22,680 nucleotides of DNA from a virus: IMG/VR virus record IMGVR_UViG_3300008450_000503, positions 1-22,680 of that record; one strand, given 5' to 3'. Below, one piece after another: positions 4,743-18,645 of the stretch. Under the pieces are notes generated by a model. It did no database searches. It was not told where the DNA came from and saw only the letters and a list, made by a program, of their open reading frames with translations. The stretch's first letter is position 1; every line of letters starts with the position of its first letter. Made by a program: the position numbers and the translations under genes.

Positions 4743-4743
4743 T

Positions 4744-5844: not shown

Positions 5845-8174
5845 TATAATTTACAGCTTTCGCAGTCCTCTTCATATTCTGTTGATGTTACTTCTTCTAC
5901 TGTCACTTCTGATTTTACTTCGTCTACAACCTTACTACCAGCTTTATTGATTAAACTGTAGTAGAAAGTCTTAATTCCCCATGCATGTGCCTGCATCAAG
6001 TTTTTAGCGATCAGCGTAGTCGGAACCTTACGATCTGGGAAGTGTGCTGGATTATAGAATGTATTTGTTGAAATACTTTGATCTACATAGGCCGCTAGCA
6101 CTGCCGCTGTTTTCAAATATCCGTCGCAGTCTTTCTGTTCCCACATCAGTTGATACTTATTTTTTAGTTTGTTATATTCTGGTACTACCTGTATAAAACT
6201 ACCTGCTTTTGACTCTTTAACTGAAATCAAGCTCATCGGCATTTCGATACCATTAGTTGATCCAATAACCACACTCGAACTTTCTACTGGAGCGATAGCC
6301 ATTAGTGTAGCATTACGCACACCATACGATCTCATGTCACTGCGTAGTTGTTCCCAATCTAGTTCACGTGTTGGTGTAAAATCGGCTAGTTTGTTTACAG
6401 CTTTTGCGCGATTCTCCCATGGAAACTTACCTTTACCATACCGTGTGTATTCACTGTGTTTACATGCGCCACGTTCTTTAGCCAGTTCAACAGTGGCTTC
6501 TGTCAAGAAGAATGCCTGATGTTCCATCCAAGTCTTGACATCCTGTAAGGCTTCTGTAGTACCATATTCATAACTGCGTTTAGCATGCCAGTAAGCAAGA
6601 TTAGTGACTCCGATACCTAGAGGTTGGATCTCGTCATTCGATAATTTGCTCTGTATGCTCAAGAAATCTTGATAATCTAAGATGTTGCACAATGATCTTT
6701 GTAAGATGCGACAAGCACGACGCATATCTTCTGGATTACGGAAAGCTCCCCAATTGATACTGCCTAAGGTACATAAAGCGATACGACCTTTATCATCATC
6801 TAAACGTTTAAATGGCTTAGTAGGTAACAGGATTTCACAGCATAAGTTACTTTGATAGATTGTGTGATATTCTGGATCAAATGGTCCTTGGTTCATTACA
6901 TTGTCGATAAACACTAAGTAGATACGTCCCGTATCTGTACGCTCTTTTAAGATACCACTTTTAAATACTTCTTCAGCCGATAAAACTTTTTTACGTAGTC
7001 CTTTTTGACGTTCATACTTCTCATATAGTTCTTCAAACAGTTTTGTATCTTTATAAAATGCTTCATATAAGTCAGGCACTTCATTAGGATCAAAGAATGT
7101 TATGTTTTCTTTATTCTTAAAACGTCTCCAGAACATAGCGTTAAGCACGACACCATAGTCCATATGTCGCACACGTGTTTCTTCCGTACCTTGATTGTTT
7201 TTAAGCACGATAAGATCATCAAACTGATGATGCCAGATCGGATAGAATACCGTAGCTGACGCATTACGGATACCACCTTGTGAACAACTGCGTAGATCAC
7301 CAAACCATTTCTTAAGGAAGGGGATCATGCCTGTGTGCATGATTTCCCCGCCTCGTATAGGACTACCCAATGGGCGCAAACGACCTATCTCTAAGCCAAT
7401 GCCTGCACGCTTGCTGGCATACTTGGCCATCATTTCACCACTGGCAAAAATACTGTCTAGATCATCGTCTGATTTGATCAACACGCATGAACTAAATTGT
7501 TTTGTGGGGGTACCTAGGCCAGCGAGTACTGGAGTGGCGAGCGTGAACAATCCGTCACTGGCGCAGGTATAGTAATCTCGGATGTAGCGTAATCTTTGTT
7601 GTGGATTTTCTTTATGGAACACTGTTGCAGCAGCAACCATATAACGGACTTGAGGAGTTTCATAAATCTGTTTAGTAGCGCGATTCTTAACTAGATATTT
7701 TTCAATCAACTGCTCGATAGCCGCATAACTATATTCTTCATCTTTGGCATGATCGATCATGTCGTTCATCTTGTTCCATTCATCTTCTGTGTACCAAGAT
7801 AATAATTCTTCTGTATATAATCCAGTAGCTACGTTCGTTTTAACGATTTCATACAAGTGTGGAACAGCATAATCACCATAGATATCTTTACGTAGCATAG
7901 ATAGTCTTTGTTTACCTGCTACGAATTGATAATTAGTATGACCTACTTCAGGTTCATGTTCTACGTCAATCAAATCTACGATTGCACGTAGGGTAATTTC
8001 ATCAATTTCGCGTGTGGATATACCATCGTAAAAATGTGGTTGTGCTTTGATTTCTATCATGGATTGGCTGACATCAGCTACGCCCTGACATACTTTGGCT
8101 ACCTGTGCCTGCCATTTTGTAAGATCTAGTGGTACGATCTGGCCACTGCGTTTTTTGACTTGAATATTGCTCAA
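5844..8174 (-). CDS. nrdA: Ribonucleoside-diphosphate reductase alpha subunit, class Ia
   Basis: Catalytic subunit reducing NDPs to dNDPs. An ATP-cone-like regulatory domain occupies about residues 1-95 (V-K-K-R-S-G-Q-I, then F-Y-D-G-I-S-T-R-E-I). The active site is intact: Cys230 (F-S-S-C), Asn443/Cys445/Glu447 (S-N-L-C-C-E) and Cys468 (I-A-L-C-T-L), matching E. coli C225, N437/C439/E441 and C462. The radical-transfer tyrosine pair is in T-F-Y-Y-S-L. The C-terminal redox pair is C-E-S-C at 771-774, served by the glutaredoxin two genes on. The start is TTG: an in-frame TAG lies 10 codons upstream with no ATG between, and a GAGG site is 7 bases before the TTG. Length 776 aa is normal. Confidence 0.96.
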   Translation of the reverse strand: MSNIQVKKRSGQIVPLDLTKWQAQVAKVCQGVADVSQSMIEIKAQPHFYDGISTREIDEITLRAIVDLIDVEHEPEVGHTNYQFVAGKQRLSMLRKDIYGDYAVPHLYEIVKTNVATGLYTEELLSWYTEDEWNKMNDMIDHAKDEEYSYAAIEQLIEKYLVKNRATKQIYETPQVRYMVAAATVFHKENPQQRLRYIRDYYTCASDGLFTLATPVLAGLGTPTKQFSSCVLIKSDDDLDSIFASGEMMAKYASKRAGIGLEIGRLRPLGSPIRGGEIMHTGMIPFLKKWFGDLRSCSQGGIRNASATVFYPIWHHQFDDLIVLKNNQGTEETRVRHMDYGVVLNAMFWRRFKNKENITFFDPNEVPDLYEAFYKDTKLFEELYEKYERQKGLRKKVLSAEEVFKSGILKERTDTGRIYLVFIDNVMNQGPFDPEYHTIYQSNLCCEILLPTKPFKRLDDDKGRIALCTLGSINWGAFRNPEDMRRACRILQRSLCNILDYQDFLSIQSKLSNDEIQPLGIGVTNLAYWHAKRSYEYGTTEALQDVKTWMEHQAFFLTEATVELAKERGACKHSEYTRYGKGKFPWENRAKAVNKLADFTPTRELDWEQLRSDMRSYGVRNATLMAIAPVESSSVVIGSTNGIEMPMSLISVKESKAGSFIQVVPEYNKLKNKYQLMWEQKDCDGYLKTAAVLAAYVDQSISTNTFYNPAHFPDRKVPTTLIAKNLMQAHAWGIKTFYYSLINKAGSKVVDEVKSEVTVEEVTSTEYEEDCESCKL

Positions 8175-8187
8175 TTTGATACCTCTT

Positions 8188-8649
8188 TTAGTATTTCTCT
8201 AATGCTAAATCTGTGCTTGAATATTGATACAGCAGTTGTAATTGCTTTTCTTCTACTTGTTTTGTATTTACTATTTCATAAGGCCAGTAATTAAGAATAT
8301 ATTTTCCATCGTCTAACCAAGCTACAGAATAGCGTTCTTTATCTTTATAATCATAATATACTCTTATTTCCATTGCGGTATTTCTATGATGAGTAAAGTA
8401 TATAGTATACATGATTCCAAGTGCTTTAGCAACGTCACACCAGTAGTTTTCGGCTAACAATGTCCAAGGATCTGGCCATGATTTTGGATCACTAGGATCT
8501 AGATTATAGTTGACAAATGGAGCAGTGCTCCACATGTTGTTTAGTTCTATTACAGCAGACTCTAAGGGCAAGCGATCTAGCTCATGACGGAAATCTTTCC
8601 ACTGCGCTAGCCTGTCATTGACACGCAGGTTCCAAAAATTCTGCCACAT
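8188..8649 (-). CDS. Phage protein of unknown function (153 aa)
   Basis: Not recognised. It is unusually rich in tryptophan and tyrosine, especially in the first half (M-W-Q-N-F-W at the N-terminus, then S-W-P-D-P-W-T-L-L-A-E-N-Y-W-C-D-V). The second half has beta-type strands (M-E-I-R-V-Y-Y-D-Y-K, then Y-S-V-A-W-L-D-D-G-K-Y-I-L-N-Y-W). There is one cysteine, and no signal peptide or membrane segment. It starts 2 bases after the tail-fibre-like gene and ends 13 bases before nrdA, so it is cotranscribed with both. A structural or chaperone role beside the fibre gene is possible but not shown. Confidence 0.62.
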   Translation of the reverse strand: MWQNFWNLRVNDRLAQWKDFRHELDRLPLESAVIELNNMWSTAPFVNYNLDPSDPKSWPDPWTLLAENYWCDVAKALGIMYTIYFTHHRNTAMEIRVYYDYKDKERYSVAWLDDGKYILNYWPYEIVNTKQVEEKQLQLLYQYSSTDLALEKY

Positions 8650-8651
8650 GA

Positions 8652-9230
8652 TTAGGCAAACGTTCTAGGTGAATAGTATGTAAGATTAGCTGATGTACCG
8701 GTATTGGTTGTAGTATATTGTAACACCGCACTATTGCCGTAGGCAAAAAATGATAAGTTTACACCAGTAGAACCAGTTTCTGTATATTCATCATCAAACA
8801 CCGCAACATTACCACTTATTTGAGTAACTTTAATGGTGCCTACCCTAGCTTCGATACCGCGAGTGATTCTATAATCAATTAGATTAGTCAACGAATCAGT
8901 GAGTGTAAGAGCAGTGTTTGTAGCAGACCCAGTATTATTTGCTAATACCAAAGTAGTTTTTGCTACGTTATTAGATGTAAGGCTAGCATATGATTGAAGT
9001 ATACTGACATTTGACTGTAACAGTGCGATATTTGCGGCATTCTCATCAGCTGAAAATTCAGTTAATATTTCAGTTACACCTATTTCAGGTGCACCTTCTG
9101 ATAAAGTACCGTTGCCGATGTATAAACGACGCTCGTCAATCGACCAACCTAATTCTCCCGACGCTAGCTGTGGTAGATTTTCCTGTAGACCACGACGTAC
9201 TTGGATTTTTGAAATTTGTATTACAGCCAT
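8652..9230 (-). CDS. Tail fibre / receptor-binding-like protein with Mtd-type N-terminus
   Basis: Residues 4-45 (I-Q-I-S-K-I-Q-V-R-R-G then L-A-S-G-E-L-G-W-S-I-D and R-R-L-Y-I-G-N-G) match the N-terminal pattern of phage fibre proteins related to the major tropism determinant N-domain: a short strand, R-R-G, A-x-G-E-x-G and R-x-L-x-I-G-x-G. The rest is Thr/Asn/Ser-rich with beta-like segments, as in trimeric fibres, and ends in a short aromatic-containing tail. At 192 aa it is short for a full fibre, so it may be a distal or connector subunit. A late-type box CATAAATA at 9256-9263 would give a 20-base leader, consistent with late structural expression. Confidence 0.75.
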   Translation of the reverse strand: MAVIQISKIQVRRGLQENLPQLASGELGWSIDERRLYIGNGTLSEGAPEIGVTEILTEFSADENAANIALLQSNVSILQSYASLTSNNVAKTTLVLANNTGSATNTALTLTDSLTNLIDYRITRGIEARVGTIKVTQISGNVAVFDDEYTETGSTGVNLSFFAYGNSAVLQYTTTNTGTSANLTYYSPRTFA

Positions 9231-9255
9231 GATTTTACCTTAGTTCAATATCTAG

Positions 9256-9263
9256 TATTTATG
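9256..9263 (-). promoter_or_regulatory. T4-type late promoter box CATAAATA before the fibre-like gene
   Basis: Seven of eight matches, overlapping the stop of the nuclease gene. The predicted start is 9250, with a 20-base leader containing AAGG before the ATG at 9230. Confidence 0.6.
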
Positions 9264-9957
9264 CTAATTTATAATACTGCTCAACTCTATCAAACCAACG
9301 ATCCATCCAAATCGTCCACTCATTGCCTTCAAGTACCCAATGCTGAAACTGAGGTTTTTCGTTAGGCTTTGGCGCTACAGCCATCAGTATAACGCCCTGA
9401 CGAATGTCTGTGCCGTGGACTTCATTATGTGCGGCAGCATAGGCGCATAATTGAAGGAAATAGTCTTCAATCCACTCCTTTTTCTTGGGTTTATTAGTCT
9501 GTTTGTAGTCTAAAATTGAGGGTTGGCCATGATATAAACCGCAGGCGTCTGTAGTACCAGCATACAAGCCCGGAACATACAAGGGCACTTCGATACCCCA
9601 TACTTCTTGCACGTTTATTAGTCCGTTATTAATAATTTCCTTAGCCATGTTGTGTGCTTCAACGCTATACGGATTTGAACCTGGTTCAGTTAATACTCGA
9701 TTATTACGCACATAGTCCTCTAAAAATTTGTGCATACGTGTACCACGTCCTGCGGCTTCTGTTGTAATTTCAGTAGCACGTTTTTCACCTACTGATTTAC
9801 GCCAATTGGCTAGAGCTTCTCGTTTTTCTTGTGGTTTGGTACGATCTAATATTGTTGTAACGCTAGGAACACGTGATCCATCTGGCAGAGTATAAAGTCT
9901 TTTGCCTTCTACTGTGTCACGGTTTATTGGAGTATAATTGTATTTTTGTATAAGCAT
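9259..9957 (-). CDS. PD-(D/E)XK exonuclease, MGME1/RecB-like
   Basis: Motifs occur in order for the RecB/Cas4-type nuclease fold: G-T-R-M-H-K-F-L-E at 72-80 (His76), Asp137 in G-T-T-D-A, D-Y-K at 150-152 (motif III lysine), and Q-L-C-A-Y-A at 169-174 (the Q-x3-Y motif). The 232-residue length fits the compact single-domain enzymes called mitochondrial-genome-maintenance-exonuclease-like in T4-like marine phages. Only two cysteines are present (139 and 171), so a Cas4-type iron-sulfur cluster is not expected. It probably trims single-stranded or flap DNA in replication, recombination or host DNA breakdown. It follows iscA by 31 bases. Confidence 0.85.
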   Translation of the reverse strand: MLIQKYNYTPINRDTVEGKRLYTLPDGSRVPSVTTILDRTKPQEKREALANWRKSVGEKRATEITTEAAGRGTRMHKFLEDYVRNNRVLTEPGSNPYSVEAHNMAKEIINNGLINVQEVWGIEVPLYVPGLYAGTTDACGLYHGQPSILDYKQTNKPKKKEWIEDYFLQLCAYAAAHNEVHGTDIRQGVILMAVAPKPNEKPQFQHWVLEGNEWTIWMDRWFDRVEQYYKLA

Positions 9958-9988
9958 CTATTAAGTATATATGCTTATCTGATGATTG

Positions 9989-10309
9989 TCAAACGGTAAA
10001 TGATTCACCACAACCACAACGTGCTTTCTCGTTGGGATTAGAAAATTCAAATCCTTCGTTGAGACCTTTTTTGGTATAGTCGATCTGCATACCTTGTAAG
10101 TATACCAGATCTTTTTTATTGATTACGAGTGTAACACCGCGGTCTTCTACTTCGAGGTCACCCTCGAATAATCGATCAGCAAATTCTAATACGTAAGCAA
10201 ACCCACTACAGCCACTTGTTCTAACACCAATACGCATACCGATGCCTTTTCCTCTGTGATCTAATGCTTCCTGCATTTTTTTACTTGCTGAAGATGTAAT
10301 TGATATCAT
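9989..10309 (-). CDS. iscA: A-type iron-sulfur carrier (IscA/ErpA/HesB family)
   Basis: The 106-aa protein has the three invariant A-type cysteines: Cys34 in T-S-G-C-S-G-F-A-Y, and Cys98 and Cys100 in R-C-G-C-G-E-S-F at the C-terminus. The I-D-Y segment and G-L-N-E-G-F-E-F-S-N-P-N are also family hallmarks. It would carry [2Fe-2S] or [4Fe-4S] clusters from a scaffold to apoproteins. It lies at the end of a cassette starting with iscU, with two DUF1289-like genes between. I use iscA as the family symbol; phage sequence alone does not separate IscA from ErpA or SufA. Confidence 0.92.
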   Translation of the reverse strand: MISITSSASKKMQEALDHRGKGIGMRIGVRTSGCSGFAYVLEFADRLFEGDLEVEDRGVTLVINKKDLVYLQGMQIDYTKKGLNEGFEFSNPNEKARCGCGESFTV

Positions 10310-10317
10310 TTTTTTTG

Positions 10318-10494
10318 TTATTCAAACCAATCAGTAATTTCTTTTTCTAATCTATCAATGATTTTTTGTTTTTGTTTGTCAGTGAAGTTATACCATTCAG
10401 TTACTTCTTCCACCGTCCTTCCACAACCTACACAGATTTCATTTTCATATCTGCATATTGATATGCAGGGACTTTCTACCTTAGACTGTTTCAT
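10318..10494 (-). CDS. DUF1289-like small cysteine protein, copy 2 (58 aa)
   Basis: A short gene, easily missed. The protein has the DUF1289 layout: E-S-P-C-I-S-I-C near residues 7-14, then I-C-V-G-C-G-R-T near 20-27, then E-W-Y-N-F-T-D-K-Q-K. Cysteines at 10, 14, 21 and 24 could bind zinc, iron or an iron-sulfur cluster. The function of DUF1289 is not established. Its ATG lies inside the end of copy 1 (14-base overlap), and its TAA is 8 bases before iscA. Clear similarity to copy 1 shows a tandem duplication. Placement between iscU and iscA suggests a role in cluster assembly, which is inference. Confidence 0.82.
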   Translation of the reverse strand: MKQSKVESPCISICRYENEICVGCGRTVEEVTEWYNFTDKQKQKIIDRLEKEITDWFE

Positions 10495-10651
10495 TTTTCT
10501 TTATAATCCTATTCCACACAGTTTGTCTTTGTTCATCGGTTAATTCATACCATTCAAACGCTTCATCCTGCGTACGAAAACAAGCACTACACTCACCGCT
10601 GATGAATTGGCATACACCTATACAGGGACTTTCAATGGGGTTGCGTTTCAT
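10481..10651 (-). CDS. DUF1289-like small cysteine protein, copy 1 (56 aa)
   Basis: This gene is tucked between iscU (20-base overlap) and copy 2 (14-base overlap). The layout equals copy 2: I-E-S-P-C-I-G-V-C at 6-14, E-C-S-A-C-F-R-T at 20-27, then F-E-W-Y-E-L-T-D-E-Q-R. Cysteines at 10, 14, 21 and 24 are in the same positions as in copy 2. The two copies share E-S-P-C-I, the cysteine spacing, R-T, E-W-Y and T-D-x-Q, but differ at many other sites, so the duplication is old or the copies were acquired separately. The DNA around E-S-P-C (GAAAGTCCCTG) is identical in both. Confidence 0.82.
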   Translation of the reverse strand: MKRNPIESPCIGVCQFISGECSACFRTQDEAFEWYELTDEQRQTVWNRIIKKNETV

Positions 10652-11021
10652 TCTTTTTTCTGTAGTCAGCTATAGCTGATTTGATTGCATCTTCTGCAAG
10701 CACCGAGCAATGTATCTTGACGGGCGGTAACGCAAGTTCTTCTGCGATATGTGAGTTTTTGATGGTCTGTGCCTCATCCAGCGTCTTGCCCTTGAGGAGC
10801 TCGGTGACAAGGCTAGAGCTAGCAATAGCACTGCCACAACCATACGTTTTAAATTTGGCATCTGTTATGATTCCTTCATGCACTTCAATCTGTAATTTCA
10901 TCACATCACCGCAGGCTGGTGCACCTACCATACCTGTTCCTACATCTGGACTATTCTTGTCCAAGGTGCCCACATTACGAGGATTTTCGTAATGGTCTAA
11001 TACTTTTTCTGAATAAGCCAT
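10632..11021 (-). CDS. iscU: Iron-sulfur cluster scaffold protein IscU
   Basis: Full-length IscU (129 aa). The three cluster cysteines are Cys37 in A-C-G-D (with Asp39), Cys62 in Y-G-C-G-S-A, and Cys105 in I-H-C-S. The segment L-P-P-V-K at 98-102 is the recognition motif for the HscA chaperone, so the protein keeps the surface needed to use the host HscA/HscB release system. It assembles [2Fe-2S] clusters with sulfur from a cysteine desulfurase; no iscS, hscA or ferredoxin gene is in the window, so these would come from the host. A late-type box at 11054-11061 and a GGAG site precede it, giving a 27-base leader. Confidence 0.95.
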   Translation of the reverse strand: MAYSEKVLDHYENPRNVGTLDKNSPDVGTGMVGAPACGDVMKLQIEVHEGIITDAKFKTYGCGSAIASSSLVTELLKGKTLDEAQTIKNSHIAEELALPPVKIHCSVLAEDAIKSAIADYRKKNETQPH

Positions 11022-11053
11022 GTAAACTCCAATAGTATAGTAAAATACTAAAG

Positions 11054-11061
11054 TATTTATT
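11054..11061 (-). promoter_or_regulatory. T4-type late promoter box AATAAATA before iscU
   Basis: Seven of eight matches. The predicted start is 11048, with a 27-base leader containing GGAG before iscU. It places the iron-sulfur cassette in the late expression class. Confidence 0.6.
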
Positions 11062-11905
11062 ATTGTTTGTCAACCGGAAGATGTTCTCTATATCTGTATA
11101 ATTGAGATTCGTCTATAGGAGTAGTGTCAAAAATTGGTTTTGGTAGGTTTTCTTTAAATTCACCCAGTGCTGTATGCCATCGTAGATCTTGTGGGCAAAA
11201 CTCACATTGTGCTATATGTTGATCTTTTGTAGCGGCAAATTGTTGTAATTCTTCTTCACTGCAATCAGCTGATAATGGTTGATAACTATACAATAATTCT
11301 CGTTGACGATCGTCTAAGCGTAGATCGAACTGCTGATCAAAGTCTGGTAAATTACTCATAGCAGGACACTTATATAATTTACCTTGATACATAGTGTGAT
11401 CATGTTTCATATCGCAGGCTGCAAATGCTTTTACTGGATTACTGCGGTGTAAAACATAATGATCGTTCTGTTTTATTACTGTACTTTGATGGAATGTAAA
11501 TGCCTCAATGAATCCTGCTTTATATTTCCATCTTTCTTTAATTTCGTCAGCAATAGCGGGATCGTGTAAGCTCACTCCAAAAGCAACATTATATTTTTCC
11601 CAGAAGTTCATATGTTCTTCTCGTTGATATGTGCCGTTAGTCTGTACCATAATAACAGCATTAGGCCACAATCTGCGTAGATTACTGACCCACAATTCTA
11701 AATCCGGGTTAAGTGTAGGTTCGCCACCTATGATAGTAATACGTGGTAAATCTAAGCGTTTACTCCAAGCTTCATATGCGTCTGCATGATCAGCCCAGCG
11801 TTGATGTCCTTTGAAATTTAAATCGTTAAAACGGTTACAGCCGCGACAACTTAGATTGCAGACATTGGTTATGTAAAACTCTACTACAGGAAATAAACGA
11901 ATCAT
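11060..11905 (-). CDS. Radical SAM enzyme with SPASM-like cysteine-rich C-terminus
   Basis: The radical SAM cluster motif C-N-L-S-C-R-G-C is at residues 16-23 (CxxxCxxC), and the SAM-binding G-G-E-P-T follows at 60-64. Further cysteines in the C-terminal half (164, 180, 215, 234, 237; for example K-C-P-A-M and C-E-F-C-P-Q-D) suggest an auxiliary cluster, as in SPASM or twitch proteins. The enzyme would cleave SAM to start radical chemistry; the substrate is unknown, and related phage and bacterial proteins modify peptides, sugars or nucleotides. The gene directly precedes iscU, which could supply its cluster. A weak late-like box (AGTAAATA) sits 4 bases before the ATG; no ribosome-binding site is visible. 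Confidence 0.82.
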   Translation of the reverse strand: MIRLFPVVEFYITNVCNLSCRGCNRFNDLNFKGHQRWADHADAYEAWSKRLDLPRITIIGGEPTLNPDLELWVSNLRRLWPNAVIMVQTNGTYQREEHMNFWEKYNVAFGVSLHDPAIADEIKERWKYKAGFIEAFTFHQSTVIKQNDHYVLHRSNPVKAFAACDMKHDHTMYQGKLYKCPAMSNLPDFDQQFDLRLDDRQRELLYSYQPLSADCSEEELQQFAATKDQHIAQCEFCPQDLRWHTALGEFKENLPKPIFDTTPIDESQLYRYREHLPVDKQ

Positions 11906-11918
11906 CTAGTATTTACTA

Positions 11919-12305
11919 CTAGAATCCAGGTGCGCCGCGTTTTTTAGCGGCTTTTTTTGCCATGTTTGCGACAGTGTCTACAGGTGCGGTTGTAGCATCA
12001 CCTGCGGGAGTATTTGTGGTCGTAGCATCTGTATCATCTAGTTCGCCAGCTGGACGTAATTCTATATAATCTTTGTTATAGCTTTTAATAAGATTTTTTA
12101 ATGCTGGATTTGTTTCATTAGCTGAAACTAGTGCGTCATAATCAAAGGTCTTGTCTGTATTGAGCACAAGATTAATTAGACTCTGTGTTGAGATTTTTGG
12201 GAGTTGTTTCTTATCTTTGTATCTGTGGCGAATAAGCTCCAGAGCTGTTGTTAAATTAGACTCTGGAGTATTCTTTGGACTGTGTACGAATTCATCTAAG
12301 CGCAC
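11919..12305 (-). CDS. Phage protein of unknown function, CTS-like N-terminus (128 aa)
   Basis: Not recognised. The gene starts with GTG, two bases after the previous stop, without a strong ribosome-binding site, so translational coupling is likely. The N-terminus M-R-L-D-E-F-V fits a pattern shared by five neighbouring proteins (M-[KR]-[LI]-x-E-hydrophobic). The middle is helical and lysine-rich. From about residue 90 the sequence becomes a low-complexity Thr/Asp/Ala stretch (T-D-A-T-T-T-N-T-P-A-G) and it ends in a basic tail (K-K-A-A-K-K-R-G). A head-internal or scaffold-associated protein is plausible. Confidence 0.6.
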   Translation of the reverse strand: MRLDEFVHSPKNTPESNLTTALELIRHRYKDKKQLPKISTQSLINLVLNTDKTFDYDALVSANETNPALKNLIKSYNKDYIELRPAGELDDTDATTTNTPAGDATTAPVDTVANMAKKAAKKRGAPGF

Positions 12306-12307
12306 GA

Positions 12308-12997
12308 TTATCTTAGTTCGCGGCCAAGTTCTTCTGCACCACCAACTGCGGCGTCAGTAGCACCAAATCCGTCGGTTTCGTCTTGATCTAGATCGCTACC
12401 CGGTGCTGGAGGTAATTCTGTATCACTACCACTTAAATCAGCTTGATCGCCTGGCATAGCCATTGGATTATTAAGTTGTTCACCAGTTAAGATACGCACA
12501 CCACCATCGACACCTTCACGTGCTGATTGTAAGTTACCCATCAGTGTATCTAATGTAGAGCCTACTGCGTTTTTAAATCCGTCAGCTTGTTCTGAACCAA
12601 TTTGATCGCGGATGCTGTCTAATAATTCTGGTAGTTGTTCGTTTTGCATCTTACCAACTTTTTCGATAGCATCTTGTATTGAATCTACCATGTTCTTAGC
12701 GGCTAGTAATACTTCAGCATTACCTACTTCGCCTTCTACTAGAGTTTGGCGATTTTCTTCTAACCAAGTATTCAATCCTTCTTGGACTGTGAGTAGTTCC
12801 ATATAACGTGGATTCTTTTCTGCTGTGTGTAAGTCCACACTGTGGCGGATCTTGTCTAAGTTTGCTGAGATAGTTTCACTTAGACGTTCTGCTTTTTCAA
12901 CGGTTAGATTACTGAAATTAATAGCAAAACCAAAGCGGCTTTCCATTAATTTGTTAATCTTACGTGTTGATTTCGTAGACATTTCTGCTAGTTTCAT
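12308..12997 (-). CDS. Putative virion or prohead-core protein, coiled-coil, acidic tail
   Basis: I start this at the ATG at 12997 (M-K-L-A-E-M), which has AGGA 8 bases upstream; a TTG two codons earlier is less likely. The 229-residue product is mostly helical (long heptad-like runs from residue 25 to 160, few prolines, no cysteine), followed by an acidic, Gly/Pro-rich tail (G-S-D-T-E-L-P-P-A-P-G-S-D-L-D-Q-D). Helical bodies with acidic tails are common in phage prohead core and scaffold proteins. No homologue is recognised with confidence. The N-terminus fits the CTS-like pattern of its neighbours. Confidence 0.6.
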   Translation of the reverse strand: MKLAEMSTKSTRKINKLMESRFGFAINFSNLTVEKAERLSETISANLDKIRHSVDLHTAEKNPRYMELLTVQEGLNTWLEENRQTLVEGEVGNAEVLLAAKNMVDSIQDAIEKVGKMQNEQLPELLDSIRDQIGSEQADGFKNAVGSTLDTLMGNLQSAREGVDGGVRILTGEQLNNPMAMPGDQADLSGSDTELPPAPGSDLDQDETDGFGATDAAVGGAEELGRELR

Positions 12998-13011
12998 GGT
13001 CAAATTCCTAT

Positions 13012-13503
13012 TTAGACTTTAATATATTTAGCCAAGTTTAGGTTTTTCTTAATTTCTTTTTTAACTTGTTCTATACGATGCTGTATTTCTGTATATCTAT
13101 TGCTGTAGTATTCTTCACCCCAAGAATCACCTTTAGTCTGCGCTTTTTTATAGCGTAAACGATATAAACTAGCTTCAAATTCCAATTTGTTTAATAGGCT
13201 ATCGTTGTCACGTATTTCCCTAGCCAATTGCGTTTGTTGTTTATACAGGGCTATACAGTAGAATATAGCGTCTTTACGATTGAAAAAATCAAATGCCTGC
13301 TGACCTTCTACCATCACACGCCAGCAGTGTTCATTGATTTTAACTACACGATTAGCACCGACTAATACATCCGTACCTATCTGATAGCAGAATGGCAGTT
13401 CTGAATCTTCTTGGGCTAATCGGGCTAGTTCAGACTGGGTAAATCGGCGGATTTTTTCAACATCAAATTCAGCTAACGATTTTTTTGTAGTAGATTTTGC
13501 CAT
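13012..13503 (-). CDS. Phage protein of unknown function, coiled-coil C-terminus (163 aa)
   Basis: Not recognised. The first 100 residues appear globular, with three cysteines (Cys59 in Y-Q-I..N-E-H-C-W-R-V-M-V region, plus F-C-Y-Q and F-Y-C-I). The last 55 residues are a basic, charged helix with coiled-coil character (L-E-F-E-A-S-L-Y-R-L-R-Y-K-K, then R-I-E-Q-V-K-K-E-I-K-K). The N-terminus is M-A-K-S-T-T-K-K, basic and probably disordered. It overlaps the end of the upstream 69-aa gene by 35 bases, indicating coupling. Position among likely head genes suggests a virion or assembly role. Confidence 0.58.
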   Translation of the reverse strand: MAKSTTKKSLAEFDVEKIRRFTQSELARLAQEDSELPFCYQIGTDVLVGANRVVKINEHCWRVMVEGQQAFDFFNRKDAIFYCIALYKQQTQLAREIRDNDSLLNKLEFEASLYRLRYKKAQTKGDSWGEEYYSNRYTEIQHRIEQVKKEIKKNLNLAKYIKV

Positions 13504-13678
13504 CAGTATTGGTTCGAGTTAGGACATCTTTGACTGTTAGATTGTTGGCCAACAGTTGTTCACGTTCATCTAGGTGGCTTTTTGGAATAAGGGTATCACC
13601 AACGAAACGATCAAGTAATTCGTTTTCTTCATTGGTAATAGGCAATAATAGTTTGTTGGTTAGTTCTACAATCTTCAT
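13469..13678 (-). CDS. Small phage protein of unknown function (69 aa)
   Basis: Not recognised. The N-terminus M-K-I-V-E-L-T-N-K-L-L-L-P fits the M-K-[LI]-x-E pattern of neighbouring proteins. The product is acidic in the middle (N-E-E-N-E-L-L-D-R-F) and ends with a D-G-K-I-Y-Y-K-K-I-V segment. A late-type box CATAAATA at 13684-13691 ends only 5 bases before the ATG, so with T4 spacing the transcript would start at the A of the ATG. No ribosome-binding site is seen. The gene overlaps the next one by 35 bases. Confidence 0.6.
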   Translation of the reverse strand: MKIVELTNKLLLPITNEENELLDRFVGDTLIPKSHLDEREQLLANNLTVKDVLTRTNTDGKIYYKKIVS

Positions 13679-13683
13679 GCAAG

Positions 13684-13691
13684 TATTTATG
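13684..13691 (-). promoter_or_regulatory. T4-type late promoter box CATAAATA
   Basis: Seven of eight matches, in the 13-base gap before the 69-aa gene. The predicted transcript start is the A of its ATG. Confidence 0.55.
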
Positions 13692-13955
13692 TTACTTGAA
13701 GAGGGCGTGTCCGATAAATCCGATAAGTCCTGCTAGGATTACACCCAATACGCTGACTAGGACGCTGACGCTTTGTTTACCGCGACCTTCTAGTTTCTCG
13801 TCTAGACTTTCCTTGATGCCAACTAAGTAGCCTTCAAGTTTATCCATACGATGTTCAAGATTCTGTAGTTTAGTTTCCAAGTTGCTGTACCTTACAGCAC
13901 ATATCTCAACGTGGGCTTCTAGACTCTGTTTTTCAATTTCTGATGGTTTGGCCAT
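13692..13955 (-). CDS. Coiled-coil protein with C-terminal membrane segment (XhlA/holin-like)
   Basis: The 87-aa protein has two parts: an N-terminal helix with heptads (L-E-T-K-L-Q-N-L-E-H-R-M-D-K-L-E-G-Y-L) and a C-terminal hydrophobic segment at about residues 64-84 (V-L-V-S-V-L-G-V-I-L-A-G-L-I-G-F-I). This matches the layout of XhlA-type phage proteins (coiled coil plus one membrane helix) that work with holins in lysis. It could equally be a membrane anchor for another phage protein. An AGAGGAA site lies 5 bases before the ATG. The start is preceded by a 12-bp tandem repeat and overlapped by a 39-codon micro-ORF. Confidence 0.62.
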   Translation of the reverse strand: MAKPSEIEKQSLEAHVEICAVRYSNLETKLQNLEHRMDKLEGYLVGIKESLDEKLEGRGKQSVSVLVSVLGVILAGLIGFIGHALFK

Positions 13956-14038
13956 CTCGCTTCCTCTGTGTAAGCGATGCTGTTCTTATGAGCCTTGACG
14001 TATGCCTTAATATGTGCCTTAATGAATGCCTTAAGCAT
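13919..14038 (-). CDS. Micro-ORF (39 aa) with tetrapeptide repeats, possible cationic peptide
   Basis: The frame runs from ATG at 14038 to TAG at 13919. Its first 16 residues are a tetrapeptide repeat, L-K-A / F-I-K-A / H-I-K-A / Y-V-K-A, produced by a 12-bp tandem repeat; the rest is basic and hydrophilic. The peptide would be cationic and amphipathic. A late-like box ACTAAATA at 14045-14052 ends 6 bases upstream, so the RNA would begin one base before the ATG. No ribosome-binding site is present. It overlaps the next gene by 37 bases in another frame. It may be a real leaderless peptide, a translational leader for the next gene, or a chance frame. Confidence 0.4.
   Translation of the reverse strand: MLKAFIKAHIKAYVKAHKNSIAYTEEARWPNHQKLKNRV
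13987..14034 (-). repeat. 12-bp tandem repeat, four copies
   Basis: Four adjacent 12-base units on the minus strand: TTAAGGCATTCA, TTAAGGCACATA, TTAAGGCATACG and TCAAGGCTCATA. The core (T-[TC]-AAGGC) is conserved and the last four or five bases vary. Because the period is a multiple of three, the unit keeps frame in the micro-ORF and encodes an x-[IV]-K-A tetrapeptide. Each unit also holds an AAGG ribosome-binding-like core. It lies in the leader of the XhlA-like gene. Confidence 0.85.
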
Positions 14039-14044
14039 CTAATA

Positions 14045-14052
14045 TATTTAGT
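14045..14052 (-). promoter_or_regulatory. Late-promoter-like box ACTAAATA
   Basis: Six of eight matches, at the end of the 144-aa gene. The predicted start is one base before the micro-ORF ATG at 14038. The longer string CTAAATATATTA recurs upstream of the gene starting at 12997. Confidence 0.4.
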
Positions 14053-14482
14053 TGTTGGGTATACTTATAAAGTATATGTTTTTACTTGGACCGTTTGTGT
14101 AGAATATCGGCATGGGCGGTTGTGCAGTTTCATCTAGTCCTAAGATGACAGGAGTATGGCTAAAGTCATTTTTAAGCACACCATAAGGATCTCGATCTTG
14201 TAGATAGAGATTTTCAAATTCAACTTCAAATTCAAAAGTCCAAACACGGTGTTTGCCAGTATAGCTATCACCAAATTCAAATTTTAAAAGTTCTTTAGTT
14301 TCTGTAGGTAATTGTTTGCTAGACATGATCTGTGTTCGTAATCCCAATACCTGCATGACTGTTTCCCAGTTACGCTGCTTGTTTCTCATGCGTTCAAGCT
14401 CTGGAGTATACTTGGTTATATCTGTTTTGGTAACGTCAACTAGAGTATAACCACGGTGGCGATGTATTCTTGGATCTATCAT
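14048..14482 (-). CDS. Phage protein of unknown function, probably virion-associated (144 aa)
   Basis: Not recognised. The N-terminal half is basic and helical (E-L-E-R-M-R-N-K-Q-R-N-W-E-T-V-M-Q-V), the second half has beta strands (V-W-T-F-E-F-E-V-E-F-E-N-L-Y-L) and ends N-I-Y-F-I-S-I-P-N-N. No cysteine or membrane segment. A late-type box AATAAATA at 14491-14498 lies 8 bases before the ATG, predicting a leader of only about 3 bases, and no ribosome-binding site is seen. It follows the terminator of the 148-aa gene, so it begins a new transcription unit. Confidence 0.62.
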   Translation of the reverse strand: MIDPRIHRHRGYTLVDVTKTDITKYTPELERMRNKQRNWETVMQVLGLRTQIMSSKQLPTETKELLKFEFGDSYTGKHRVWTFEFEVEFENLYLQDRDPYGVLKNDFSHTPVILGLDETAQPPMPIFYTNGPSKNIYFISIPNN

Positions 14483-14490
14483 TATAAGAG

Positions 14491-14498
14491 TATTTATT
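14491..14498 (-). promoter_or_regulatory. T4-type late promoter box AATAAATA
   Basis: Seven of eight matches. It lies between the terminator and the 144-aa gene; the predicted transcript start is 14485, three bases before the ATG. Confidence 0.55.
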
Positions 14499-14516
14499 GA
14501 CCAAGTATTAGGTCAC

Positions 14517-14541
14517 AAAAAAAGCACCTTACGGTGCTTTT
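14517..14541 (-). terminator. Rho-independent terminator after the 148-aa gene
   Basis: The stem GCACC/GGTGC has a GTAA (GNRA) loop on the minus strand, is extended by A/T pairs and is followed by a T run. The core stem is the same as in the terminator at 15062-15089. A weak hairpin (AGCTT/AAGCT, 14548-14562) overlaps the stop codon upstream. Confidence 0.9.
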
Positions 14542-14555
14542 ATGTTGAGCTTGGA

Positions 14556-15002
14556 TTAAGCTACTGTGAAACTTGTACCTTCAACTACCTGTGTACCGCT
14601 GATGTCAATAAGATTTCCACCTGCTGATTGTATCGCTGTATTAGCGTAAGTAAATGTTGTTGATGTTAAGCGTGTTGCAGCTGTGTTTGCACCAATTTGA
14701 CGAATGCGATGTTGTAGATCTGCAGCACTTACTTGTTTATCTGTAACAATAAAAATATTAGCTTGGTTAGTTGCTGTAGAACCAGTAGTGTAGTATGCTA
14801 ATGGATTAACTTCATCAACGATAGATTCTATCACACCACCAGTTAGTCCTGAGTCAGTAACTAGATTCGCACGGATCGCTATTGAATTATTAACTGTGAT
14901 CACGTGTAATTTTGAGTTGACACCGTACAATGTACCTACTGTAGTCTGCGTACCAACTAAGGTATTTGCTTGACCTAATTTCCATTTCTGCAATGTTGCC
15001 AT
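14556..15002 (-). CDS. Putative virion protein, own promoter and terminator (148 aa)
   Basis: Not recognised by name. Composition is that of a beta-rich particle protein: Thr, Asn, Ala and Val abundant, no cysteine, one Trp. The N-terminus M-A-T-L-Q-K-W-K-L-G-Q resembles small structural proteins, and A-D-L-Q-H-R-I-R-Q-I-G-A-N-T is a helical segment. It is a one-gene unit: a late-type box CATAAATA at 15030-15037, a 22-base leader with GGAG, and a rho-independent terminator 15 bases after the stop. That architecture suggests a strongly and independently expressed product such as a head decoration or tail protein. Confidence 0.65.
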   Translation of the reverse strand: MATLQKWKLGQANTLVGTQTTVGTLYGVNSKLHVITVNNSIAIRANLVTDSGLTGGVIESIVDEVNPLAYYTTGSTATNQANIFIVTDKQVSAADLQHRIRQIGANTAATRLTSTTFTYANTAIQSAGGNLIDISGTQVVEGTSFTVA

Positions 15003-15029
15003 TTGTATATCTCCAAAGGATCTTTTTAT

Positions 15030-15037
15030 TATTTATG
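15030..15037 (-). promoter_or_regulatory. T4-type late promoter box CATAAATA
   Basis: Seven of eight matches to TATAAATA. The predicted start is 15024, with a 22-base leader containing GGAG before the 148-aa gene. It lies directly after the preceding terminator. Confidence 0.65.
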
Positions 15038-15061
15038 CGAGATCATAGAATATCAAGACAA

Positions 15062-15089
15062 AAAAAAGCACCGCGAACGGTGCTTTTTT
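15062..15089 (-). terminator. Rho-independent terminator after the 120-aa gene
   Basis: The stem GCACCG/CGGTGC with loop TTCG on the minus strand is extended by A/T pairs and followed by a T run. The A-run and T-run are symmetrical, so it could act in both directions. A second hairpin (AGTTAC/GTAACT, 15091-15107) lies between it and the stop codon. Confidence 0.9.
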
Positions 15090-15114
15090 AAGTTACTATC
15101 AGTAACTACTGATC

Positions 15115-15477
15115 TTACATACCTTCTAGGTCTGTTGGCTCAGTAACTGTTACAGTTTGTGAGTCAGATAGTGTAGCTACGCCACCTGATAATGAGAATG
15201 TACCAGTATCTAACACTTTAGCGATTGCTTGAGCAACTGCGCCGATTGAAGTGTTAACGCGATCAACGATCATGTAGATTTCGTTACCATCTGATTTGAA
15301 TTGGAATGTACCAGTGATTGAACCTAGTGCATCGCTGATCTTAGCTGCAGCTGCGTCTGAAGCTGCTACTGCTAGACCTGAACCACTTAATACAACTTTG
15401 TATACTGATTGAGCTGTGTTGCGTTGGATTGTACCACGAGCAACTGCTGTTGGGTTAGTACGTGTAAATGTTGCCAT
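15115..15477 (-). CDS. Putative abundant virion protein, own promoter and terminator (120 aa)
   Basis: Not recognised by name. It is rich in Ala, Thr, Ser and Val, cysteine-free, with M-A-T-F-T-R-T-N-P-T at the start and a K-I-S-D-A-L-G-S-I helix, and is probably a small beta-type particle protein. It forms a single-gene unit: a late-like box (ACTAAATA, 15518-15525), a 35-base leader that begins with a hairpin, an AGGAG site, and two hairpins after the stop, the second a typical terminator. These features predict a stable, abundant mRNA. It shares this arrangement with the next gene (14556-15002), but their sequences are not obviously related. Confidence 0.65.
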   Translation of the reverse strand: MATFTRTNPTAVARGTIQRNTAQSVYKVVLSGSGLAVAASDAAAAKISDALGSITGTFQFKSDGNEIYMIVDRVNTSIGAVAQAIAKVLDTGTFSLSGGVATLSDSQTVTVTEPTDLEGM

Positions 15478-15496
15478 TTTATTTCTCCTAATGTTT

Positions 15497-15514
15497 GTAC
15501 GCTTTCGCGCATAC
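15497..15514 (-). other. 5'-leader hairpin of the 120-aa putative virion gene
   Basis: The minus strand GTATGCGCGAAAGCGTAC folds into a six-pair stem (one G-U) with loop GCGAAA. It would lie at the very 5' end of the predicted transcript, where hairpins protect T4-type messages from decay. Confidence 0.55.
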
Positions 15515-15517
15515 TAT

Positions 15518-15525
15518 TATTTAGT
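15518..15525 (-). promoter_or_regulatory. Late-promoter-like box ACTAAATA
   Basis: Six of eight positions match TATAAATA. The predicted start (about 15512) coincides with a hairpin at 15497-15514, and the 35-base leader carries AGGAG before the 120-aa gene. Confidence 0.5.
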
Positions 15526-15551
15526 CCAAAAATAAAAAAATAACTGAGTAG

Positions 15552-16781
15552 TTATTGGCGTTTAAGGAAGTTAGTGCGGCTGAACTCTAATCTGTCTACT
15601 AGTTTAACAGCACCCCCATCGTGGCCTATAGCAACAAAACCCTCTGGTGTGGTTACCTTATAGCCGTCGTTAGTTTTTTGGAAGGTGCCTATGCCTTCTA
15701 CCTGTTGTAGTTTGCGTAGGAGCATGATTTTCATTTCAACTATGCGTTTATATGTGGCTAATATACCAAGCAAATTATTAGCGTTATCTGCGACCCATTG
15801 TTCTTTTTCTTTGATCTTGGCTAGGCGATTCTGTGCCGCACGACTAGTGACGACATCTATATCTTTAGTCATCAGCTCATGATAGTACGTCATGAAATCT
15901 TTTAGGAAAGCTGTGGGTTCTGCGGCAAAAGTTCCACTACGCACAGTTCTGTTAATATAGGGTTTGATATTGCGGGCAAATTCTTTGTTGGTTAAGATGA
16001 TGTCGAATCTAGCTTGACCAATTTTTTCCATGGTATTATATGTGGCAGTCAGCATAGATCTGATCTTGCGATCTTCTGTTGGTGTTAGACTAGCGATACC
16101 TGTATAGTCTTTGTAGGTAGCATCATCAAACCAAACATCTGGGTGTTTGTTTAAGCCCTGTATGTTTACCATATATCCAGCACGCATAGATTCTAGACTT
16201 TCTCCTTCATAGCTGGTATGGAAGATGATGCCTAATTTAGCACGTGCGATACGTTGTCCTAATTCACTATCTGTTGGCACAGCGTAAGTTATGGTATTTG
16301 GTGTAAACGTAAGACATTGCTCACCATTGATGTCGGCTGTTTCTACCCAACCTTCCTTGAATAGTAGATCACCTTGTATGACTCCACCTATGTTTAGTTT
16401 CTTTAGGTGCTGTAGGGCACTGGCTAAGATTTCCGCTAGCTCGGGTTGATCACCGTAGAAACGTTCTATGTCTCTGGCAGTTTTACAAACCTTAGGTTCT
16501 GCTTTGGCGAACACACTTTTAGTACCTACAAAGAAACGACCGTCAGCAGGATCGATACCGCAGATGATAGCCGGACTTCCATCCCACTTGACTGTGAGTT
16601 TAGTAGTAGTACCTGTGCCTTCTGCTAACATGCCGCGTAGGCTTTCTACATAATCTAGTGCGGCCATAGCGCCAGCATGGCCTTGATTAAACACTAGATC
16701 TTCTAGATGTTCAAGATGAGTGTTCTTGCTTTCTGTTAGCAAGAACTCTGGAGTCTGTTGTTTTATTTCAAATAGTTTCAT
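15552..16781 (-). CDS. Ligase-fold nucleotidyltransferase-like protein
   Basis: The 409-aa protein shows the covalent nucleotidyltransferase motif order of DNA/RNA ligases: motif I K65-W-D-G-S-P, a G-T-K-S segment at 86-89, motif III-like I-Q-G-D-L-L-F at 135-141, a IIIa-like G-I-I-F-H at 184-188, motif IV E380-G-F-V and motif V K393-L-V-D. Lys65 would carry AMP. A helical insert of roughly 190 residues separates IIIa from motif IV, so the fold is expanded compared with T4 ligases. The N-terminus M-K-L-F-E-I fits the CTS-like pattern, with L-L-T-E/S at 14-18 matching a prohead-protease site. It may seal nucleic acid ends, or be a packaged or inactive relative. It starts on an ATGA overlap. 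Confidence 0.65.
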   Translation of the reverse strand: MKLFEIKQQTPEFLLTESKNTHLEHLEDLVFNQGHAGAMAALDYVESLRGMLAEGTGTTTKLTVKWDGSPAIICGIDPADGRFFVGTKSVFAKAEPKVCKTARDIERFYGDQPELAEILASALQHLKKLNIGGVIQGDLLFKEGWVETADINGEQCLTFTPNTITYAVPTDSELGQRIARAKLGIIFHTSYEGESLESMRAGYMVNIQGLNKHPDVWFDDATYKDYTGIASLTPTEDRKIRSMLTATYNTMEKIGQARFDIILTNKEFARNIKPYINRTVRSGTFAAEPTAFLKDFMTYYHELMTKDIDVVTSRAAQNRLAKIKEKEQWVADNANNLLGILATYKRIVEMKIMLLRKLQQVEGIGTFQKTNDGYKVTTPEGFVAIGHDGGAVKLVDRLEFSRTNFLKRQ

Positions 16782-17505: not shown

Positions 17506-18645
17506 TTAAAATAATAACATCGCAAATTCTGGACATAATTTCTCAAAACTTGTATTTCTAATTTTATCAAGTTTATCGATATATTCCAAAAATTTACCGT
17601 GATCATCATCGCTTTCTTTTAAAGAATAGACTAAATCCAATAACATTGGATAACTTTTAAATTTTTCTATTAATTTAGATTTACATGCACTTGATATATG
17701 ATCGATCGCACAATCGCCGATGGCTTTTTGAAATATCAGTTTGGTATTATCACCCAATCGATTAGCATTAAAGGCAGATTGATGCCAGTCAACTAACTCA
17801 TTTAGATAGTATAAATTTAAATATCCCCATGTACAATTAACGTTGAATAGATGATTTACAGGCATATTATCGATATACCAATTGAGATTGCTTGTTACTT
17901 CAGACCAATTTGCACCTGTGCGTTGATAGTTAAATCGTTCGCCAATATCATCGATACTAAAATATAATTCAACTAATTGACATTCACTCCATATTTCTAA
18001 TACTCGATCGGATACTCTTGTAGTTCCATTAACGTTATAACATATACGCAGATCTGCTAACCCTTTAACAGATTTAATTTGCTCTAATAGATCTATGTGT
18101 GTAGTGGATAATAAAGGATCCCCGCCACCATGAAAATGAATATTTTTTATTTCTGATAAAACTGCTGGGTTATTTAATTTAATTTGATTAAATTTTTCAT
18201 GTTTAAATTTGATAATATCTGTCTGGGGATAAATTTTCTCATAATCTGATATCCACGCGGTGCTATTATTTGGTCCGCATATTATGCATTTTAAATTACA
18301 TAAATTACCTACACTGTAGTCAATGCTGACTGGGCTTGTTAGATTGATGTTAGTGTCTTTTCTGTATTGCTCGTATAGTTCTTTAGAACTTAAACGTCTG
18401 CTTTTAAGACCGTGAGTTTCTTCATGGTAACATCTATGGCATTGGGGAATTGGTTGATCATTCTCTACTAATTTTTTTAATTCCTGATGTTCTGGGCTAT
18501 CCCATACTTCCGATATATCTAATCTATCAGATGTTTTTATAAATCCGTCGAAATACGAGCAGGGATTGTATGCAATTTTGCCGTTTGCAGACCAAATGGC
18601 GAGATTTTTATAAATCTCATAGCAGAAATATTTTTTATTCTGCAT
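17506..18645 (-). CDS. Radical SAM protein, twitch-type, with extra N-terminal cysteines
   Basis: CxxxCxxC is at 116-123 (C-N-L-K-C-I-I-C), preceded by I-D-Y-S-V-G-N-L, with G-G-G-D-P-L-L at 173-179 for SAM binding. An N-terminal extension has Cys29, Cys69 and Cys72 (P-N-P-C-S-Y and P-Q-C-H-R-C-Y-H-E-E), which look like half of a SPASM/twitch auxiliary cluster placed before the core, as in a group of phage and marine bacterial radical SAM proteins. The gene is visibly more AT-rich than its neighbours, suggesting separate acquisition. It overlaps the SDR-like gene by 11 bases. The substrate is unknown; its pairing with an SDR points to modification of a sugar or small metabolite (inference). 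Confidence 0.82.
   Translation of the reverse strand: MQNKKYFCYEIYKNLAIWSANGKIAYNPCSYFDGFIKTSDRLDISEVWDSPEHQELKKLVENDQPIPQCHRCYHEETHGLKSRRLSSKELYEQYRKDTNINLTSPVSIDYSVGNLCNLKCIICGPNNSTAWISDYEKIYPQTDIIKFKHEKFNQIKLNNPAVLSEIKNIHFHGGGDPLLSTTHIDLLEQIKSVKGLADLRICYNVNGTTRVSDRVLEIWSECQLVELYFSIDDIGERFNYQRTGANWSEVTSNLNWYIDNMPVNHLFNVNCTWGYLNLYYLNELVDWHQSAFNANRLGDNTKLIFQKAIGDCAIDHISSACKSKLIEKFKSYPMLLDLVYSLKESDDDHGKFLEYIDKLDKIRNTSFEKLCPEFAMLLF

Follow-up and report, generated by a model that had tools for sequence, protein, structure and literature searches.

A recurrent phage gene block of iscU, DUF1289 and an A-type carrier gene, and its possible service to phage radical SAM enzymes

Why should a phage carry part of the iron-sulfur (Fe-S) cluster assembly (ISC) system, and what would a small protein of the DUF1289 family do inside it? 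The question is raised by a T4-like phage, the virus record IMGVR_UViG_3300008450_000503, which was analyzed over its full length of 22,680 bases (here called the window). On its minus strand, a gene for a radical S-adenosylmethionine (SAM) protein was followed by the scaffold gene iscU, two DUF1289 genes (copies a and b), a gene for an A-type carrier (here iscA) and then a phage exonuclease gene. The order iscU-DUF1289-iscA was found to be a recurrent phage gene block. The five genes of the cassette are, in order of transcription:

11060..11905, minus strand: radical SAM protein, 281 amino acids; PF04055 43.2 bits against a cut-off of 29.5 (6.3e-11); C16/C20/C23 and C164/C180/C234/C237
10632..11021, minus strand: IscU scaffold, 129 amino acids, frame intact; NifU_N 1.3e-52; TIGR01999 222.4 bits against a cut-off of 192.4
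10481..10651, minus strand: DUF1289 copy a, 56 amino acids; PF06945 52.5 bits against a cut-off of 27 (4.4e-14)
10318..10494, minus strand: DUF1289 copy b, 58 amino acids; PF06945 60.4 bits against a cut-off of 27 (1.5e-16)
9989..10309, minus strand: A-type carrier, IscA-like, 106 amino acids; PF01521 64.4 bits against a cut-off of 26.3 (1.4e-17); TIGR00049 108.7 against 58.8; phrog_17776 9.7e-41

These family scores, all above the cut-offs, show that the genes are real and lie where a first-pass annotation of this DNA had placed them. The close spacing that it had described was also found: 38 nucleotides (nt) separate the radical SAM gene from iscU, iscU overlaps DUF1289a by 20 nt, DUF1289a overlaps DUF1289b by 14 nt, and 8 nt separate DUF1289b from iscA. 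Counted on the translations, the key cysteines of both ISC proteins were present, as C37/C62/C105 in IscU (E. coli C37/C63/C106) and C34/C98/C100 in the IscA-like carrier (E. coli C35/C99/C101). IscU also contains the HscA motif LPPVK, and both DUF1289 copies have C10/C14/C21/C24. Because the carrier missed the TIGR02011 IscA equivalog cut-off (144.4 compared to 150.6 bits), it is filed by its sequence score only as an A-type carrier and not as IscA proper.

The gene neighborhood was surveyed in two samples of viral contigs, both ranked by similarity to the window and speaking only for its relatives. The first consisted of 143 viral loci (repeat fetches removed) drawn with IscU, DUF1289 and radical SAM queries, and is biased to these genes. 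The second was anchored on the exonuclease and is neutral to the cassette; it was made from the best 80 of 547 relatives, in which the slot between the exonuclease and the gene up1 was complete in 70 and cut in 10. The two edges of the slot in the window are:

9259..9957, minus strand: phage exonuclease, directly downstream of the cassette; phrog_298 1.7e-54; the neutral survey anchor
11919..12305, minus strand: up1, a phage gene (function unknown) adjoining the cassette on its upstream side; it recurs upstream in the surveys

In the first sample IscU was found in 129 of the 143 loci. The order iscU-DUF1289-iscA was present in 40, two DUF1289 genes in 3, a carrier plus DUF1289 in 2, and DUF1289 without iscA was seen in 4; the remainder had nothing, a second carrier or another arrangement. 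In the anchored sample, iscU and iscA were both present in 65 of the 70 complete slots, DUF1289 in 46 and the radical SAM gene, upstream, in 28. Exactly one DUF1289 stood between iscU and iscA in 41 slots, two in 3, and a second carrier plus DUF1289 in 2. A second A-type carrier replaced DUF1289 in 8 slots, nothing was found in 4, and a radical SAM gene alone in 1. The junction of iscU and DUF1289 was overlapping, by the edges of the hidden Markov model (HMM) matches, in 45 of 47 cases. The first-pass annotation had proposed the order iscU-DUF1289-DUF1289-iscA: with one DUF1289 this order is conserved in relatives (41/70), and with two it is confined to the window's own population (3/70). As a side observation, iscU-DUF1289 was directly followed in one locus (L314:5177-7243; L numbers refer to surveyed loci) by a radical SAM gene that also gave a weak match to B12 binding.

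The cassette genes are under purifying selection. The ratio of nonsynonymous to synonymous rates (dN/dS), with finite dS only, was 0.034-0.065 for IscU, IscA, the radical SAM protein and both DUF1289 copies when compared with L085, L086, L104, L110 and L113. For DUF1289, where dS was near saturation and infinite in two comparisons, the ratio was 0.04 for copy a to L104 and L113 and 0.26 to L114, and 0.035 for copy b to L086 and 0.16 to L149. The IscU cysteines, Asp39, His105 and LPPVK (C37, D39, C63, H105, C106) were kept in 119 of 119 aligned viral copies, a set that is alike by selection, since 59 of 128 columns were invariant in its 97 distinct copies. Three cysteines were kept in all 129 aligned viral A-type carriers, and C10, C14, C21, C24, R26 and W34 of DUF1289 were the same in all 28 sequences compared, viral and cellular. 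Chance or mis-annotation of the cassette is ruled out by the family scores, the dN/dS values and the recurrence in dozens of other contigs. Bacterial contamination of the window is likewise ruled out by the neighboring phage genes (exonuclease, DnaB-type helicase, DUF6267 and class I ribonucleotide reductase, RNR). A megablast search of window positions 8000-20000 against the phages collection gave no match.

On the IscU tree, the window copy lay in a group of 77 rows (support 96/81) that mixes 56 from viruses with 21 from cells, the latter of beta- and some of alpha- and gammaproteobacteria, and at least three label changes were needed for the viral copies. Among the cellular rows, which included no SAR86, it was nearest to Methylophilaceae with weak inner support, and because of this placement a methylotroph host may be guessed.

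The doubled DUF1289 was found only in L001, L084 and L098, which are 99.3-99.96% identical to the window in the longest aligned stretches and, by this identity, are one viral population with it. In more distant relatives the two types occurred singly: L113 (85.5% identical to the window) had the a-type copy alone and L086 (85.6%) the b-type copy alone. In the DUF1289 tree, copy a fell in a supported clade of 14 rows, each the only copy in its locus as far as that was covered (L305 being cut by the contig end). Copy b paired with L085, to which L086 is an equally close alternative, in a weak tree of 58 columns. The edges of the a-module both read AAAAAnAATGAAAC or nearly so, a sequence that the end of IscU shares with the beginning of both DUF1289 types, and such near-repeats would fit gain or loss of the module by recombination. 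To judge from these sequences, the slot behaves like a site that gains and loses alternative modules, because a-type and b-type copies occur singly elsewhere and near-repeats flank the a-module. The second copy would then be a lineage-specific addition to a variable slot. A fresh tandem duplication is not favored, as copies a and b grouped with different singly found lineages.

Parts of this picture were known. IscU and A-type carriers have been reported in marine T4-like genomes with many radical SAM genes, and a service to viral and host proteins was proposed for them (Nishimura et al. 2017, PMC5332604). That scaffolds and carriers of this kind are known in marine viruses had also been stated by the first-pass annotation. 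Those viruses resemble the window in having a scaffold and/or an A-type carrier, radical SAM enzymes and glutaredoxin; the IscU of their OBV_N00005 was placed near SAR86, and that of the window nearest to Methylophilaceae among cellular rows without SAR86. Other marine phage groups have been reported to carry iscU/erpA and sufA (PMC9038755, PMC10580990). The main texts of PMC5332604 and PMC10580990 do not mention DUF1289, and no link between DUF1289 and IscU was found among titles and abstract openings, nor a function for DUF1289 beyond the appearance of ydhL in an overexpression screen for H2O2 resistance (PMC8228696). Neither that screen nor a phage genome paper that names DUF1289 deals with Fe-S assembly. 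To that literature, the present analysis adds DUF1289 as a regular third member, together with the gene order and the slot variation.

Like the E. coli operon iscRSUA-hscBA-fdx-iscX, the window has iscU followed by an iscA-type gene and the same scaffold residues; unlike it, DUF1289 is inserted between them, a radical SAM gene stands upstream, and the iscR, iscS, hscBA and fdx families were not seen in the proteins scanned. A Pfam scan of 30 window proteins gave no IscS, HscA/B or ferredoxin family, and the window holds no complete isc operon. Across the 143 viral loci (129 with iscU; flanks of up to about 6 kilobases, kb), neither HscB nor Fdx nor IscR was found; an HscA-like protein was present in two and an IscS-like protein in one. 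That sole desulfurase is a SufS-like cysteine desulfurase directly upstream of iscU-iscA (L058:4795-5994; TIGR01979 262.8 bits, below its cut-off). As the block showed neither a sulfur donor nor a chaperone, the module would have to lean on host parts. The LPPVK motif of IscU fits the use of host HscA.

The reading that we favor, at slightly under an even chance, is that of a phage-borne partial ISC module that feeds phage radical SAM enzymes, with DUF1289 acting at the step from IscU to IscA. We infer its biochemical steps, the co-transcription of the genes, the use of host partners and the role of DUF1289 from what was observed: gene order and overlap, conserved ligands, purifying selection, the recurrent order, and IscS, Hsc and Fdx hardly ever within about 6 kb. 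Phage IscU would take sulfur from host IscS, and its LPPVK motif would recruit host HscA/HscB for cluster release. Phage IscA would then hand [4Fe-4S] clusters to phage radical SAM enzymes, first to the putative twitch-type enzyme encoded upstream, which would need two. DUF1289 would bind a metal ion or a small cluster through its four cysteines and act between IscU and IscA; most simply, it may be a small electron donor or adaptor replacing the missing ferredoxin. No PDB relative of DUF1289 was found by sequence, and a model of copy b (predicted local distance difference test, pLDDT, 78.4) gave no fold match at E 0.001 or better, so no type of metal can be named.

The window contains two radical SAM genes, as the first-pass annotation had counted, the second of which is:

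17506..18645, minus strand: second radical SAM protein, a possible client, 379 amino acids; PF04055 36.4 bits against a cut-off of 29.5; CNLKCIIC motif

In the family of the upstream protein, C16/C20/C23 were invariant and C164/C180/C234/C237 were at least 90% conserved (26-row alignment, some rows partial). Its predicted model (pLDDT 82.9) matched best, within the PDB, the twitch radical SAM dehydrogenase SpeY (7wzx, E 1.9e-9, Foldseek template modeling score, TM, 0.59-0.62, root-mean-square deviation 9-10 A), which was also matched by sequence (7wzv), and BtrN was among the best fold matches. With 18-23% identity and a TM of about 0.6 at most, this likeness is one of fold class only. The SpeY and BtrN dehydrogenases carry a second cluster. 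C164/C180/C234/C237 are a predicted twitch auxiliary cluster site, and the upstream protein is a plausible client with two clusters because it combines CxxxCxxC and four near-invariant cysteines with a SpeY/BtrN-like model. The exonuclease was also considered as a Cas4-like Fe-S client and is ruled out, since only two cysteines and no four-cysteine site were found on its translation.

Several observations weigh against the favored reading, and they are given here together with the alternatives on which they bear. DUF1289 was absent from 19 of the 65 iscU-bearing anchored slots, and the module therefore works without it. In L306, DUF1289 stood alone in the cassette slot (5001-5174) and an iscA-iscU pair in reversed order was located 4 kb downstream (9473-10164). 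Promoter-like sites and terminators showed no excess over shuffled sequences. In the wider viral set, the median pairwise dN/dS was higher for DUF1289 (0.16) and IscA (0.14) than for IscU (0.055).

Further points concern where else DUF1289 is found. A broad viral scan (the best 80 of 561 relatives together with the earlier loci) gave 62 loci not already counted as cassettes, with the nearest upstream gene found for 60 and the nearest downstream gene for 59. A relative of class II RNR stood beside DUF1289, on either side, in 14 of the 62 (L335, L341, L344-L351, L353, L356, L359 and L361), overlapping it in 12, at 1 nt in one and at 54 nt in one (L359); two of these relatives were scanned (L346 and L353) and had TIGR02505, below its cut-off, as best match, and the others were joined by BLAST. 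DUF1289 also adjoined a relative of B12-dependent RNR in Roseobacter phages CRP-9 and CRP-345 (L291 and L292), and many unrelated genes in the further viral loci. In cells, DUF1289 was present in at least 108 of 249 genomes across the phylum of a relative of the window IscU, in 55 of 60 genomes of the Methylophilus family (as a single copy in 53 of the 55) and in 10 of 10 genomes of close IscU relatives. Its cellular neighbors were drawn from 48 loci with 1.5-kb flanks (L240-L287), in which 84 of 136 open reading frames (ORFs) were scanned; SecA was found in 12, RuvX in 7, ArgJ in 6, CobT in 4 and CobS in 1, and no isc family occurred among the 25 families listed of 53 matched. The family is that of E. 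coli YdhL (PF06945), whose gene lies beside ydhF and nemR; these surroundings, like those with secA, ruvX, argJ or cobT, differ from the window, where both copies score above the family cut-off with all four cysteines. With no isc family among the cellular neighbors listed, the signal that ties DUF1289 to Fe-S assembly is one of viruses, and a broader role in redox or metal chemistry competes seriously with it.

One alternative is that DUF1289 is a general small zinc or thiol-redox protein for DNA-precursor or B12 enzymes, and that it stands between iscU and iscA by habit of the lineage, in a variable slot, and for no functional reason; this we regard as somewhat unlikely. The recurrence of DUF1289 beside class II RNR and elsewhere with no iscU nearby means that its role need not be Fe-S delivery. 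CobT and CobS beside the cellular gene are a possible second link to B12, to go by the sequence matches, and the second A-type carrier that takes the iscU-iscA slot in 8 of 70 cases points the same way, as does a cellular DUF1289 that shares an open frame with a NUDIX-like domain (L278:850-1797), the box of which was read by eye. In contrast, 16 of those 62 loci had IscU as their closest gene upstream, DUF1289 was held by 46 of the 70 anchored slots, and DUF1289 linked to iscU fell in several branches of its tree, with at least four label changes forced on few columns. An electron or metal donor could, moreover, serve both RNR and ISC.

Another alternative concerns the clients. The module may be an ordinary set of auxiliary metabolic genes (AMGs) that supports the Fe-S metabolism of the host (in respiration, in upkeep of the RNR cofactor and in repair of clusters under stress), with the phage radical SAM enzymes not the main clients; this is rather unlikely in our estimate. 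Both iscU and sufA have been counted as AMGs in viromes (PMC5332604, PMC9038755). The window IscU keeps every host feature that was checked and branches, at weak inner support, with Methylophilaceae. A radical SAM gene was held by only 28 of the 70 anchored slots, and the L306 record (87,943 bases), which may be a fragment, had iscU and iscA and no radical SAM match. Two records with no iscU in the flank (L156 and L158) had three and nine radical SAM matches. On the other side, 15 of 16 long viral records probed, all but that of L306, had radical SAM matches, 1 to 15 each and some below the family cut-off, and the gap between the radical SAM gene and iscU was 41-79 nt in 31 of 41 junctions and 509-722 nt in the other 10. 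The first-pass annotation had spoken of a dedicated supply line of clusters to phage enzymes. With no IscS, HscA/B or ferredoxin in the block, and with L306 as described, the word dedicated reaches further than the gene content.

A stronger form of the favored reading, in which DUF1289 is a real third component of Fe-S assembly, is unlikely as a whole: it would be a metal or electron carrier between IscU and the A-type carrier, packed there by phages in place of ferredoxin, and would also serve radical-based enzymes (radical SAM and class II RNR). If it were true, the common proteobacterial YdhL would share that function. The phage placements, in an overlapping frame between scaffold and carrier and beside a B12-dependent RNR, give two concrete candidate partners for DUF1289, and the slot may offer a starting point for working out what the bacterial protein does. 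That phage IscU and IscA are decoys diverting host IscS and iron and damping host Fe-S synthesis is highly improbable: only scaffold and carrier are encoded, with no sulfur donor, as a decoy would have it, and a decoy needs a binding surface only, whereas the catalytic residues and the HscA motif are all kept under strong purifying selection.

The iscU of the window is intact, and in some of its relatives the gene was interrupted. By HMM search, iscU was split in 8 of the 65 iscU-bearing anchored slots, and in all eight the break point was the same, after Cys37-Gly38. The frame there reads GGA and directly then TGA. The remainder lies in a different open frame, whose first codon encodes Gly and comes 7 or 8 nt after that GGA. 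A pattern search gave 50 loci on at least 34 contigs, which carry the GGA-stop bases by construction and reduce to 23 distinct sequences, some of them cut copies of others, with the downstream part complete in 17 (loci include L124, L305, L311, L312, L318, L409, L424, L427, L430, L434, L436, L441, L444, L446, L457, L463, L481, L491, L511 and L514). The gap of 7 nt reads GGATGACGGA, and that of 8 nt reads GGATGAC followed by CGGA, TGGA, AGGT or AGGC; the landing codon is GGA in two classes and GGT or GGC in the third. The pattern was absent from the 60 genomes of the Methylophilus family.

Hopping between the two Gly codons would fit both gap lengths and would restore the normal residues ACGDVM in 23 of 23 distinct sequences. 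The interrupted iscU looks like a candidate for a short ribosome hop, by analogy with the bypassing in T4 gene 60, for which the reported ingredients are a take-off GGA, a stop, a 5' stem-loop, a landing GGA and a nearby homing endonuclease gene (PMC3014915, PMC5009743, PMC11194080). As in gene 60, the GGA is directly followed by the stop, in 8 of 8 copies of the anchored sample. In the 48 bases before the 12 fixed by the pattern, the proportion of synonymous differences (pS; codons counted back from Gly38, not gap-aligned) was 0.000-0.096 within the three classes, compared to 0.53-0.79 downstream and 0.703 at that place in intact genes. A hairpin closed just before or across the take-off codon in 7 of 7 distinct tracts. 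These tracts allowed 11-13 of 13 possible pairs, compared to a mean of 7.8 (maximum 12) in 92 intact viral tracts and 8.8 (maximum 11) in 78 cellular ones, and synonymous shuffles paired as well in only 1 to 5 of 2000 in six tracts and in 76 of 2000 in the seventh. Among distinct copies, an endonuclease-like ORF stood directly upstream in 10 of the 18 that are broken and in 3 of the 102 that are intact, a circular count in that 11 of those very ORFs served as queries, and one from which L111, cut at the contig end, and three partial copies were dropped. NUMOD3 was above the Pfam cut-off only for the ORF of L424; of three others scanned, two gave HNH below the cut-off and one nothing.

Other results speak against a hop. 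The synonymous freeze was weaker across classes (pS 0.286, with the 12 pattern-fixed bases left out), and short gene conversion may be an alternative source of it. Intact viral tracts already allow the mean of 7.8 pairs given above, and by energy alone 23 of the 92 fold as stably as the weakest split one. Covariation amounted to one compensatory pair in 2 of 7 rows, with 31 of 500 shuffles reaching its score and 253 of 500 its number of pairs.

Three other explanations of the break were weighed. As to two chains made by stop-start coupling, the AUG in GGATGAC shares the frame of the downstream part in the 8-nt classes alone. A frameshift would have to be of one kind for the 7-nt gap and of another for the 8-nt gap, and would put extra residues beside Cys37. 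Evidence against a pseudogene is given by the selection on the downstream part (pN/pS, the corresponding ratio of proportions, 0.14) and by the single break point of the eight split anchored copies. Shorter counterparts of gene 60 have long been presumed to exist (2016 recoding review, PMC5009743), and among titles and abstract openings no report of bypassing in iscU was found. If the hop reading is true, the split iscU would be a natural short ribosome hop at an active-site codon.

The family scan of the window also gave the following genes:

4479-4781: glutaredoxin with CPFC
4744-8174: class I RNR genes

One record found under a phage name, Acinetobacter phage MD-2021a (L290, CAKLQH020000011.1), carried a bacterial iscRSUA-hscBA-fdx operon and is host DNA under that name. 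In L480 and L496, where the gap at Gly38 was also present, iscU contained an in-frame insert at Cys63 that starts with CLTSNAPV and ends with VGSHN before CGSAIA, intein-like by eye.

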